This document shows positions 34,931 to 41,493 of a stretch of 64,000 nt of DNA, in pieces. The position numbers and the translations under genes are program-made. The first letter of the stretch is position 1. Each line of letters starts with the position of its first letter. Under the pieces are notes generated by a model, which was given only the letters and a program-made list of their open reading frames with translations, was not told the origin of the DNA and searched no databases. Source of the stretch: a virus; IMG/VR virus record IMGVR_UViG_3300009431_000014, positions 1-64,000 of that record; one strand, 5' to 3'.

Positions 34931-35196
34931 CGCAAGGCTCTAAAGGAAAGAGGGATCCTTTTGATCAAGCTTTAATGAATCTTTATACTGAGTTGGTGGA
35001 TGAGAATTTTCCGAAGCATCAGTGTAAGGAGAGAGGACAGGCGATCGTGCTTGTTGCGGAACTGAATTGTAACCTCCGAGCTCTAATTCAAGAGTATCTT
35101 CTTGATTTAATCGAAGTGGATTCTCCTGAAGAAGGTCGGAAAGGGAAATTGATCACGCTCGGAGGACAACTGTATTTAATAAGGATGAAAGAATGA
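34927..35196 (+). CDS. Hypothetical protein (89 aa)
   Basis: ATGA overlap at both ends. Mostly helical (FDQALMNLYTELVDENFP). No family was recognised. Confidence 0.5.
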   Translation: MTQGSKGKRDPFDQALMNLYTELVDENFPKHQCKERGQAIVLVAELNCNLRALIQEYLLDLIEVDSPEEGRKGKLITLGGQLYLIRMKE

Positions 35197-36116
35197 AGAT
35201 ACTAGTTACAGGCGGTGCAGGATTCATTGGTGGTCATCTGCTCGAAGAATTGCTTAAACATAACTTTGAGCGGATCACTGTATTAGATAACTTCTCAACT
35301 GGAGTGGCAAGGAATATACCTAAGGAAGGTCGGATAGAAGTAGTGAACGCAGATATCCGAGAAGGTAAGAACGTTGCTAAGTATCTGGAAGGTAAAGACT
35401 TCGTCATCCATCTTGCAGCTAAGACGAGTGTGCCAGAATCGATGGAAGATCCGATGTCTTATGCTAGCACTAATTTGACAGGGTTACTGAACGTGCTTCA
35501 CCTATCAGCTAGAGCTCAAGTAAGGCGATTCATCTACATCTCTTCATGTGCAGTCTATGGAGATTGTGGTCTCGTTGGGCAAGAAGATCTTAGTCCTAAT
35601 AAGTATGTCCAGAATCATTACGCACTGCAGAAATACCTTGGAGAACTCTACACAGCCTATTGTCGGACTGCGAAGATGATCCCTACGAGTTTAAGATTAG
35701 CGAATGTATACGGGGAACGACAGTTATTAGATCGAGGTGAGGGAGCAGTAGTACCATCTTTCATGACTGCGTTCTTGAATAAAAGGAACCCGATTATCTT
35801 TGGAGATGGGAGTCAGACTAGAGACTTCATCTACGTGAAAGATGTAGCGGATGCAATCGTAAGGGTGATGTTCTCTCGGGCGAAAGAGCCTGCGGTGTAT
35901 AATGTCGGTACTGGAAGAGAAGTTACTATTACGCAATTGTGTGAGTTGATGAACAGATTCGGTCGTTTTGATCGGGAGCCTGCTTATGCTCCTGTTCGTA
36001 AGGGAGATATCCATCGTTCAATCTTATCTGTGGAGAAGCTCCGCTGTGAGATCGGGTGGACTGCGAAGACTTCAATCGAGGGAGGTCTCAAGAAAACTAT
36101 GGCATTATGGGGATAA
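35193..36116 (+). CDS. NAD-dependent sugar epimerase/dehydratase (307 aa)
   Basis: Extended short-chain dehydrogenase: GGAGFIGG (7-14) binds NAD, and the Tyr143-x3-Lys147 pair with Ser118/119 forms the active site. Later NVYGERQ and GDGSQTRDFIYVKDVADA are typical of UDP-glucose 4-epimerase-like enzymes. It may supply a nucleotide-sugar to the glycosyltransferase at 9521 (inference) or alter host surface sugars. Confidence 0.82.
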   Translation: MKILVTGGAGFIGGHLLEELLKHNFERITVLDNFSTGVARNIPKEGRIEVVNADIREGKNVAKYLEGKDFVIHLAAKTSVPESMEDPMSYASTNLTGLLNVLHLSARAQVRRFIYISSCAVYGDCGLVGQEDLSPNKYVQNHYALQKYLGELYTAYCRTAKMIPTSLRLANVYGERQLLDRGEGAVVPSFMTAFLNKRNPIIFGDGSQTRDFIYVKDVADAIVRVMFSRAKEPAVYNVGTGREVTITQLCELMNRFGRFDREPAYAPVRKGDIHRSILSVEKLRCEIGWTAKTSIEGGLKKTMALWG

Positions 36117-37686: not shown

Positions 37687-37908
37687 ATGATGATAGCATG
37701 CCCGATTTGTCAAGGTGCTGGTATCGTAGTGAAAGTTCAGCGTTCGAATATTCAGACAGGAGCAGATGGAAAACCTACAATGCAACAAGAGAAGATGTTG
37801 TGCCCAGAGTGTAAGGGAACTGGGTTAGTTGAGCCTGGATACGCAGCTAAGCGTCACATCTTTAACCAGAAGAATAAGGAGTCTAAAGATGGAGAAGAGC
37901 AAAAATGA
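37687..37908 (+). CDS. DnaJ-type zinc-binding protein (73 aa)
   Basis: Two CxxCxGxG-type elements, CPICQGAGIV and CPECKGTGLV, as in the DnaJ cysteine-rich domain; no J domain. Possibly a stand-alone chaperone-like or nucleic-acid-binding module. Confidence 0.65.
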   Translation: MMIACPICQGAGIVVKVQRSNIQTGADGKPTMQQEKMLCPECKGTGLVEPGYAAKRHIFNQKNKESKDGEEQK

Positions 37909-38599
37909 TAAAACGAATGTCGCACTCTTAGGCTGTGGCAGAACAGGGAAAGTGATTATCGATTCTATTCTAGAAGATCCAGTTTATGAGCTCGATTTTA
38001 TTTGTCGATTACACCACAAACCTTACAAGAGCTGTAGGGTTATTCACCCCGATAGTCTCAAGGAGACTACAGAAGCAGATACTCCAGATGTTCTTGTTGA
38101 TTTTACGAATCACAAAGCTACGATAGAGAATCTGGAGAGGATTCCTTCAGGTAGTCGGGTTGTATTAGGAACTACAGGATTCTCTTATAAAGAATTGGAG
38201 ACGCTTAAATACTATGGTCAACATCTCAAACTACTCTACGCTCCAAATATCTCGGATGGGATCAATGTCTTACTTAAAGCTTGCAAGCTAATCCGATCTC
38301 TCATGCCTACTGCAGACATCGTAGTTATGGATGAACACTTCAAAGGTAAGAAAGATGCTCCTTCTGGGACAGGTAAAAGGATTGCGGAGGAACTAGGAGT
38401 CAAACATCCTATCTCAGTTCGAGCAGGAGGTATCGTGGGAGTTCATAAGGTGATGTTTGTGACTGGTAATCAACAGATCACAATTGAACACATGTCTTTC
38501 TCTAGACAAGTATTTGCTGATGCGACGAAACGTGCAATCGAATGGATCAGTAAGGTTGAAGAGAACGGCTTCTACGATGTAACAGAAGTTTATCAGTGA
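37889..38599 (+). CDS. dapB: 4-hydroxy-tetrahydrodipicolinate reductase, DapB (236 aa)
   Basis: Reduces the dihydrodipicolinate precursor in diaminopimelate/lysine synthesis. GCGRTG (15-20) binds the nicotinamide cofactor, VDFTNH and GTTGFS follow, and the catalytic stretch is EHFKGKKDAPSGTG (149-162). His150 and Lys154 match E. coli His159 and Lys163, but the second His of the bacterial HH pair is Phe. ATG 37889 has AAGGAG. No other lysine-pathway gene is in the window, so it probably boosts a host pathway. Confidence 0.85.
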   Translation: MEKSKNDKTNVALLGCGRTGKVIIDSILEDPVYELDFICRLHHKPYKSCRVIHPDSLKETTEADTPDVLVDFTNHKATIENLERIPSGSRVVLGTTGFSYKELETLKYYGQHLKLLYAPNISDGINVLLKACKLIRSLMPTADIVVMDEHFKGKKDAPSGTGKRIAEELGVKHPISVRAGGIVGVHKVMFVTGNQQITIEHMSFSRQVFADATKRAIEWISKVEENGFYDVTEVYQ

Positions 38600-39422: not shown

Positions 39423-39974
39423 ATGTTAGGACAGATCGCGACAGAAGTTAAGGGTTTGTGTCCTCTGATTCAGCATAATCCTGAGAGTATGAGCGTTCTC
39501 CCTACAGGGAAGAAAGTGGATTATAATGATGCGGGATACAAGAAACTGGAGATGGAGAGTACGCAGTATCGGGATGAGAAAGGGAATCTCGTACAGCCCG
39601 CAGATCATTTTATGGCAGCACTTGTTAAGGCTGGAGCTCGTTTCAAATATGAAGGAAGGTTGAGTTATGCAAGTGTCGTTGAGGGAGGAGTACTGATTGA
39701 GCCTGAGATGATTCTACATAAGAAAGGGACGAAGGTGGAGAAGTTCGAGCGATGGGTAGTAGTCCCACCTAGAACAGGTGCTCGGATTCGGAGAGTCCGT
39801 CCGATAATTAAAGATTGGTCTTTGAGTTTCACTACGAATGTGATGAACGATTCGATTAATTTCGAGACATTGAAAAAGATATTTGAGTATGCTGGCTCGT
39901 TCATTGGAATAGGAAATTGGAGACCTCGTTATGGTAGATTCGAAGTTGTCAAGTTCGGAAGAATCGGGAAATAA
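39423..39974 (+). CDS. Conserved phage protein of unknown function (183 aa)
   Basis: Begins with CPLIQHNPESMSVLP and continues with ADHFMAALVKAGARFKYEGR, a beta-rich layout I recall from phage proteins without known role. AAGGAGGTGTCAG precedes the ATG. The first GYNNN array starts one base after its stop. Confidence 0.55.
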   Translation: MLGQIATEVKGLCPLIQHNPESMSVLPTGKKVDYNDAGYKKLEMESTQYRDEKGNLVQPADHFMAALVKAGARFKYEGRLSYASVVEGGVLIEPEMILHKKGTKVEKFERWVVVPPRTGARIRRVRPIIKDWSLSFTTNVMNDSINFETLKKIFEYAGSFIGIGNWRPRYGRFEVVKFGRIGK

Positions 39975-39975
39975 A

Positions 39976-40050
39976 GCAGTGCCAAGCGTGGTCAGGTTTG
40001 GTTTAGCTTGGTGGTGTCCTGTACGGTAGGGTCAGGTATAGCAAGGTTCC
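39976..40050 (+). repeat. GYNNN pentamer array 1 (15 units)
   Basis: Fifteen consecutive 5-base units, starting at 39976, 39981 and so on to 40046. Each begins G then T (10) or C (5); the other three bases vary freely. It ends 21 bases before the next ATG and contains stops in the + frames, so it is non-coding. Confidence 0.85.
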
Positions 40051-40071
40051 ATTAATCACAAGGAGGATTAA

Positions 40072-40347
40072 ATGGTAAGATGCAGAGTTAAGAAAGAGGT
40101 TTTACCAGATAAGTTCGAGGTAAGAGATCTGGTAGGAGTATCATGGAATACATTACAGAAGTTGTTCAAGACTCTTCAGGGTAGAGAGATTACCCCTAAG
40201 GATCTCCCTCAATGGAAGTTAATGCTTGGGTTCGTGAATGCGACGAACAATTCTGTGAAAACGAGCATGCAATGTTTTAAGTTAAGCACATTACCACAAT
40301 CAATCAATTATTTGAAGAAGACATTAAAAAGGACGAGGCGGAGCTAG
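40072..40347 (+). CDS. Basic hypothetical protein between two arrays (91 aa)
   Basis: Start behind CAAGGAGG. Rich in Lys/Arg, ending KKTLKRTRRS; central DLVGVSWNTLQKLFKTL could be a DNA- or RNA-binding helix pair. No family was recognised. A pentamer array lies in its leader and another right after its stop, so it may bind them (inference). Confidence 0.55.
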   Translation: MVRCRVKKEVLPDKFEVRDLVGVSWNTLQKLFKTLQGREITPKDLPQWKLMLGFVNATNNSVKTSMQCFKLSTLPQSINYLKKTLKRTRRS

Positions 40348-40357
40348 GTAGACTCGT

Positions 40358-40432
40358 GTTCGGTCAGGTATAGTGGTGTCAAGTGTAGTTTTGTAAGGTT
40401 GAGTTCGGTGATGTAAGGTACGGCATGGTCAG
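40358..40432 (+). repeat. GYNNN pentamer array 2 (15 units)
   Basis: Fifteen consecutive units starting at 40358, 40363 and so on to 40428; all begin GT except one GC. Three more in-phase units (40338, 40343, 40348) lie upstream after one broken unit, the first two inside the end of the previous gene; two further units follow after a one-base shift (40432, 40437). It shares GGTCAGGTATAG with array 1. Confidence 0.85.
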
Positions 40433-40463
40433 TATAGCGAGATATAGAGTTAAGGAGAGCAAG

Positions 40464-40901
40464 ATGAAAGGTTATATAGAGCTTAAAACTAATCTCAAGA
40501 ATGCTGAAGTCGTTTCGGTAATGGATAAGCTCTTCAAATACTTCCCAGCGAGATACGTAGGTAGAACTGGTGGGTTCGATGAGAAGGAAGAAACTTATCG
40601 TTATGAATACGATACTCGGTGTGATTGGTTTAAGAAGGTACTTAAGAATCATCCTTTAGTCTACGAGATTCGGGATGATCTATACTGTCTCTGTCAATTA
40701 CATGGTGCTTCTTTGATTGCTCAGATTATGGGGAACATGAGCAAGAAAGATCACCATGATAAGAAGGGTGCGGTTAAGAGAGTGAGCAATACGATTAATG
40801 ATTACCTTGAAGGGAAGATCCATCAGATTGCAGACAGAAAGTTATCTGTCGAAGAGCTCAAGAAGATCTTCGATGTTGTGGAGAAAGAATGCAATTCCTA
40901 G
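40464..40901 (+). CDS. Hypothetical protein (145 aa)
   Basis: ATG 40464 (MKGYIELKTNLKN…) has AAGGAGAGCAAG; an ATG at 40425 lies inside the array and is unlikely. Alpha/beta start, helical end (VEELKKIFDVVEKE). No family was recognised. Confidence 0.55.
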   Translation: MKGYIELKTNLKNAEVVSVMDKLFKYFPARYVGRTGGFDEKEETYRYEYDTRCDWFKKVLKNHPLVYEIRDDLYCLCQLHGASLIAQIMGNMSKKDHHDKKGAVKRVSNTINDYLEGKIHQIADRKLSVEELKKIFDVVEKECNS

Positions 40902-41335
40902 TATGTAGCAGACTTTCAATCAAAAGCTTCGTCCCAGACAGGAACCATGTTGTGATCTCAGTTATGGATCCAGGAGACTCTGAAGGTCCAGCTAAGTTCC
41001 AGGAGAACGAACATACTCTTGGAGTACTCAGATTAGCGTTCCATGATCTATACGGTACCAAGATGGAAGAACGGATAGAAGAGAGTCCAGGTAAATATAC
41101 TTACTTCGATCGTGCTATGGCTAATCAGATCTGGGAGTTCGTCAATAAATTCAATGGACAAGGGATTGAATTGATTGTTTGTCAATGTGAAGCAGGGATT
41201 AGTAGAAGTGCAGGTATAGCTGCAGCATTATCCAAGTGTCTAACTGGGGATGATATGCACTTCTTTAAACACTATATACCGAACCAACTGGTGTATAGAT
41301 CGTTAGTTCAAGAGTGGGAAAAGAGAAGGAGGTGA
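40889..41335 (+). CDS. Tyrosine/dual-specificity phosphatase-like protein (148 aa)
   Basis: The P-loop VCQCEAGISRSAG fits C-x5-R-S of cysteine phosphatases, with Gln in place of the usual His before the Cys. MDPGDSEGPAKF earlier may hold the general acid. It could dephosphorylate host proteins or a nucleotide; substrate is unknown. It overlaps the previous gene by 13 bases. Confidence 0.65.
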   Translation: MQFLVCSRLSIKSFVPDRNHVVISVMDPGDSEGPAKFQENEHTLGVLRLAFHDLYGTKMEERIEESPGKYTYFDRAMANQIWEFVNKFNGQGIELIVCQCEAGISRSAGIAAALSKCLTGDDMHFFKHYIPNQLVYRSLVQEWEKRRR

Positions 41336-41340
41336 TCAAG

Positions 41341-41493
41341 ATGGCAGATGTCGTTGGATACTGTGTTAAATGTAAGGCAAAGCAGACCATGGTTGAAGTC
41401 AATGAAGTTACGATGAAGAATGGTCGTAAGGCAGCTAAAGGTAAATGTTCAGTTTGTGGCTGTGGTATGTATAAGATTCTAGGTAAATCGTAA
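41341..41493 (+). CDS. DUF5679-type zinc-ribbon protein (50 aa)
   Basis: MADVVGYCVKCKAKQTMVEV…TMKNGRKAAKGKCSVCGCGMYKI: two CxxC pairs and the TMKNGR centre are diagnostic of DUF5679. Function is unknown. AAGGAGGTGATCAAG precedes the ATG. Confidence 0.75.
   Translation: MADVVGYCVKCKAKQTMVEVNEVTMKNGRKAAKGKCSVCGCGMYKILGKS

Follow-up and report, generated by a model that had tools for sequence, protein, structure and literature searches.

The viral DNA considered here carries two intergenic tracts, arrays A and B, each made up of 15 consecutive pentamers of the form G[TC]NNN, and the question is what such tracts are and which protein reads them. By the window we mean the whole stretch of DNA that was analyzed, 64,000 nucleotides of a 69,908-base record from a 69.9-kb phage. 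The locus is, with high probability, a phage-encoded VIPR system, in which the arrays would be noncoding guide RNAs (vrRNAs) and the product of the gene upstream of array A would be the Vipr protein. The coordinates of its features are collected in Table 1.

Table 1. Features of the locus, with positions in the window
Feature	Position	Strand	Description
vipr homologue	39423..39974	+	183 aa, RAMP fold (predicted), C-terminal glycine-rich loop GIGNWRPRYGRF; matches PHROG 4652 and 36pp_D
vrRNA A repeat tract	39976..40050	+	15 GYNNN units; homologous arrays beside 79/87 related loci
vrRNA A NN string	39976..40050	+	AG CA GT CA TT TT TT GG CC AC AG CA AT AA TC
Possible 3' end of vrRNA A	40050..40074	+	weak hairpin CATTAATC/GATTAAATG enclosing the Shine-Dalgarno sequence of the next gene
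Gene between the arrays	40072..40347	+	91-aa basic orphan protein, possible accessory (vap-like); Shine-Dalgarno AGGAGG
vrRNA B repeat tract	40358..40432	+	15 GYNNN units
vrRNA B NN string	40358..40432	+	TC CA AT GG CA GT TT AA TG TC GA AA AC AT CA
Candidate shared 3' segment, 3' end of array B	40428..40441	+	GTCAG-TATAGCGAG, 2 edits from GTCAGGTATAGCAAG (3' end of array A)
Gene downstream of array B	40464..40901	+	145-aa orphan protein; Shine-Dalgarno-supported start

The arrays were noticed in a first-pass annotation made from the sequence alone, and its description of two exact 15-unit runs is borne out. All 15 units of each array fit the pattern, no further GYNNN run of more than six units exists on either strand of the window outside the two arrays, and in the whole 69,908-base record they are the only runs of eight consecutive units, while the reversed control pattern has no match there. 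The annotation put the chance of one run at (1/8)^15, a figure that presupposes even base use; with the base composition of each segment the chance per start is ~4e-12 for array A and ~1e-12 for array B, or ~5e-7 and ~1e-7, respectively, over all starts in the window. The rarity itself is upheld by permutation: each segment was permuted 100,000 times, and no more than eight consecutive units ever resulted. The annotation had also named the appearance of the phase in shuffled sequence as evidence against its view, and when the window is shuffled 100 times by a dinucleotide-Markov model the longest run is seven units, against 15 in the arrays.

Over the 30 units of the window, the entropies at positions 1 to 5 are 0, 0.72, 1.96, 1.94, and 1.60 bits, and GY is in phase in every unit. 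The fifth position, which corresponds to the first G of a GGY motif, holds G in 16 units, A in seven, T in six, and C in one. The position is thus more relaxed than it is in most relatives, with G still enriched over the genome (p=0.0008). Array A begins two bases past the stop codon of the vipr homologue. A one-base slip lies close to the 3' end of array B, and a broken unit, CTCGT, precedes its first unit. The two arrays do share the word GGTCAGGTATAG, as had been pointed out, and this 12-mer was considered as a common element and rejected, because simulated pairs of random arrays of the same make-up share at least 12 bases in about 4% of cases and the word is thus not significant alone.

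These properties match those of VIPR, a phage-borne, CRISPR-related system for RNA-guided DNA recognition whose first description dates from April 2026 (PMC13142463). Its components are a RAMP-like protein, Vipr, and vrRNAs with 9-16 repeats of YNNGG, and it was studied in Escherichia phage SUSP1 (Suspvirus), where the arrays are transcribed as about 100-nt RNAs and the vrRNA copurifies with Vipr (PMC13142463). The NN pairs specify double-stranded DNA, with one target base skipped per repeat, and the complex acts in trans to repress transcription, its predicted natural targets being mostly competing mobile elements (PMC13142463). Seven types of VIPR have been reported, which differ in architecture and have repeats of GGY/NN "or a related consensus" (PMC13142463).

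The protein partner is best sought in the gene upstream of array A. The first-pass annotation proposed that the arrays are bound by the 91-residue product encoded between them. That candidate was rejected: the protein has no relative among phages, viral contigs, Pfam, PHROGs, PADLOC, or NCBIfam, and its AF2 single-sequence model is poor (pLDDT 49). The best reading is instead that the partner is the 183-aa protein. It matches PHROG 4652, a family of unknown function, at E=1e-22, and when this single protein was searched against the PDB by phmmer its sole match was chain 36pp_D, "SUSP1 Vipr protein" (E=4.8e-13, residues 25-175); a profile of 57 members finds SUSP1 Vipr (36pp) at E=2e-50. An AlphaFold2 model built with 57 relatives is confident (pLDDT 91.8, pTM 0.87), and Foldseek and VIA-align group it with Csm3/Cas7-family subunits, with a top Z of 12.2 over 164 residues at 4.4 A. 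The absence of SUSP1 Vipr from the Foldseek and VIA lists is uninformative, because the copy of the PDB used there ends at 2026-04-08. The open frame is intact, the conserved W/G/RP/G residues are kept, and the glycine-rich loop GIGNWRPRYGRF is aligned. Sequence homology and the predicted RAMP fold together identify the protein as a Vipr homologue. It is a distant one, about 27% identical to the homologue of wV8, a phage of the SUSP1 clade, and its branch in the tree is long, at 1.95 changes per column; it falls in a set of 29 rows that is split from the other 28 with support 99/97, and it is not firmly grouped.

Arrays of the same phase accompany vipr genes widely. A tblastn search with the 183-aa protein retrieved SUSP1 and other phages, about 120-129 records, mostly Ounavirinae (Felix-O1-like), with further matches in Listonella phage phiHSIC and in Mycobacterium, Gordonia, and Pseudomonas phages. 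The arrays of the retrieved SUSP1 locus match the same pattern, and in several unrelated phages phased five-base arrays of GGT or GGC form adjoin the vipr gene; those of phiHSIC have a looser GC form. A scan of viral contigs (IMG/VR) with an eight-sequence alignment gave 559 candidate Vipr relatives, the best 80 of which were kept. Among the 87 related loci examined, 79 have arrays of the same five-base phase near the vipr gene; a reversed-sequence control gave 38 runs altogether, whereas many of the real loci had several each. Across 383 units from seven Ounavirinae phages, the entropies at positions 1 to 5 are 0.16, 0.44, 1.89, 1.87, and 0.98 bits, and near-constant tails follow the arrays. 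Relatives therefore keep the phase and vary NN, with low entropy at GY and nearly maximal entropy at NN. This is the comparison among related phages that the first-pass annotation had called for, and it agrees with the view taken there that the phase is selected and that decay of a simple repeat does not account for the arrays. The first G in the SUSP1 clade is replaced in 86/383 units (G 297, T 57, A 29, C 0), so that its share is 78% there and 53% in the window, and the looseness is a matter of degree. The exclusion of C may be a real rule at this position in the SUSP1 clade; C is used in its place by the GC-type arrays of relatives such as the contigs L046 and L051. In the virus contig L046 (2740-5270) a single vipr gene is surrounded by no fewer than 14 pentamer arrays, many of whose units have C for the first G. 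In Mycobacterium phage LittleE, hairpins resembling the tRNA T-arm (GGTTCGAGTCC...) lie between the arrays (L012, 2850-4480) and are perhaps processing signals for tRNA-maturation enzymes. In phage wV8 the annotated repeat "DR_4" (L010, 2642-2699 and 4035-4092) coincides with the constant 3' tail of the vrRNAs.

Like the VIPR loci of SUSP1 and the Felixounavirus phages (PMC13142463; PDB 36pp), the locus combines a gene for a RAMP-fold Vipr in a phage genome with pentamer arrays (9-16 repeats in those phages) of constant (G)GY and variable NN placed on either side of small genes. Three characteristic features of the system are present in the window: a Vipr protein with the predicted RAMP fold, arrays of 15 and 15 units with hypervariable NN, and an intergenic position beside vipr in a virus contig. 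It differs from SUSP1 in having only two arrays with vipr upstream of both, in lacking vap1 (PHROG 5926) or any other recognized accessory gene among the window genes, such vap genes being usual beside vipr though not universal, and in lacking a constant pseudoknot tail of SUSP1 type after its arrays. The closest Vipr proteins (38-41% identity in the best segment) come from the uncultivated phages L017, L018, and L019 of IMG/VR, which also have GT-rich arrays beside vipr and, in L017 and L018, no obvious vap gene nearby; unlike the window, they keep more of the first Gs and have no counterpart of the 91-aa or 145-aa genes. With Cas7/Csm3, the backbone of class 1 CRISPR effectors, the protein shares the fold (Z up to 12.2) and the glycine-rich loop, and it would work like their guide-RNA-bound filament with periodic kinks. 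Unlike class 1 CRISPR, the window has a pentamer code in place of a contiguous spacer, in 5-base units without CRISPR repeats or spacers, and no Cas or defense family was found in the three local proteins, nor were other cas genes recognized. In kind, the window locus is not new: it is a divergent VIPR, and VIPR itself was described only very recently.

By analogy with the published system, both arrays would be expressed from the + strand as vrRNAs. Subunits of Vipr, a small RAMP protein with a single RRM, would form a complex with each of them by aligning along the repeat tract, every subunit gripping (G)GY and presenting two variable bases. The 15 NN pairs would jointly read double-stranded DNA as NNxNNx..., with one base skipped per repeat, the skipped base usually lying at codon wobble positions, and the expected outcome is that genes carried by a rival phage or another mobile element are repressed because their transcription is blocked. 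The annotation's idea of an RNA-binding multimer survives in part, since a filament with about one subunit per pentamer is predicted; the TRAP-like ring and the choice of gene do not.

Other explanations of the arrays have to be weighed against this one. The position of each array just upstream of a Shine-Dalgarno sequence, the first of which is enclosed by a weak hairpin, would suit cis-regulatory leaders, with the 91-aa product, the 145-aa product, or Vipr binding its own mRNA at each GY for a TRAP-like control of translation. We consider this highly improbable, because autoregulation needs no hypervariability of NN, because the arrays of relatives often lie upstream of vipr or form runs of 2-14 without a gene directly behind each, and because vrRNA copurifies with Vipr and repression acts in trans in the published system (PMC13142463). 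As an addition to the guide function, autoregulation may still occur. TRAP itself also reads regularly spaced short RNA motifs with a multimer, and the annotation drew this parallel; it is the wrong one, because TRAP recognizes NAG triplets spaced 2-3 bases apart and the units here carry GY in GYNNN, and because no TrpBP domain was found by Pfam in ten nearby proteins. Five bases correspond to about half a helical turn, and a DNA-binding protein touching the helix every half turn had been suggested; the arrays would then act as DNA, for example as a partition or packaging site. Such a binder is not needed and is scarcely credible, given that the arrays lie on the vipr-coding strand in both the window and the SUSP1 clade, that the RAMP fold predicted for the linked protein is one that binds guide RNA, and that transcripts of about 100 nt arise from the SUSP1 arrays (PMC13142463).

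The remaining alternatives accept a VIPR origin. Decay of a former VIPR into a non-functional state would explain the absence of vap and of the tail and the relaxation of the first G, and the slip and the broken CTCGT unit of array B point the same way; it is nevertheless very unlikely, as GY is kept in phase in 30/30 units, the Vipr frame is intact with its W/G/RP/G residues, and a relaxed first G is also seen in the SUSP1 clade, which is functional (86/383 non-G). The repeat could also be effectively GY/NNN, with the first G free and a third base per repeat carrying or tuning target information, which would make a denser code than NN with a skip, and with the 91-aa and 145-aa products as a new pair of accessory proteins. 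This too is unlikely. Translated codon by codon, the NNN strings of array A can be read through in one sense frame without a stop, but those of array B contain a TGA, so that the extra base cannot strictly copy a coding target in the latter. The preferred reading remains a VIPR system with NN guides. VIPR is a months-old discovery and a proposed ancestor of CRISPR effectors, and the window locus is a far-diverged, minimal example of it, in which GGY is loosened and a single 183-aa protein is accompanied by two guides. Along with the 559 candidates from IMG/VR, it helps to separate the essential part of the repeat (GY) from the less essential first G, for which C is hardly ever substituted in either the window or the SUSP1 clade. 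The locus further shows cleanly that a guide RNA was spotted by reading raw sequence alone.

The ends of the arrays were compared with each other and with known elements. The hairpin after array A is rated as weak because its fold has only -5.3 kcal/mol and a z of -1.7. The 3' ends of the two arrays otherwise differ, with GTCAG[G]TATAGC[AG]AG as their common part; similarity of that degree occurs in 0.17% of random draws of unit triplets. A search of Rfam gave no match, and promoters and terminators near the arrays are in no excess over shuffles. The distances of 21 and 31 bases from the arrays to the downstream ATGs are as first reported, and a good Shine-Dalgarno sequence precedes each ATG. 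The end of array B contains a further in-frame ATG, at 40425, which is a conceivable start for the 145-aa gene; the Shine-Dalgarno sequence favors 40464.

Targets were sought with the guides of the window and with those of relatives. Viral contigs were scanned with complete and partial NNxNN patterns of both guides, and genome contigs with those of guide B, and no target exceeded chance. When all 15 NN pairs were rescored, the best candidates reached 22-23 of 30, which is not notable because it is expected from the seed plus chance. Neither guide matched any of 34 virus records with up to three mismatches, and no self-targeting was seen within the window with 0-3 skips beyond the arrays themselves. 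Read as codons, guide B resembles a helix-turn-helix (S[HQ][IM]G[HQ]V[FL][NK][CW]S[DE][NK]T[IM][HQ]), which is only a hunch because a Pfam search of the inferred peptide gave nothing. The skip rule was examined with 157 guides against 0.84 Mb of DNA, with shuffled guides as the control. A skip of one gave the best single match, and the excess over shuffled guides is small. This match, the best under any skip rule, pairs a guide of L091 (4065-4119) with the vipr gene of Pseudomonas phage Medea1 (L013, 3076-3108; peptide TKAHKELTSKR), in frame and at 20/22 bases. The next match with a skip of one pairs a guide of L075 with the vipr gene of L043-L047 (19/22). The Medea1 match is barely above shuffled guides; it is suggestive of targeting of one VIPR by another, in agreement with the published report, and lends weak support to a one-base skip among relatives.

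The 145-aa gene has no relatives in phages and matches no family at a meaningful E-value; the 91-aa product is a possible accessory (vap-like) protein. Directly downstream of the locus, 40889-41335 encodes a protein resembling dual-specificity phosphatases (PHROG 5614; weak match to Pfam DSPc). A small DUF5679 protein with zinc-ribbon-like cysteine pairs is encoded at 41314-41493. Upstream lie genes for a dihydrodipicolinate reductase (DapB, 37829-38599) and an NAD-dependent sugar epimerase (35193-36116), which are likely auxiliary metabolic genes.
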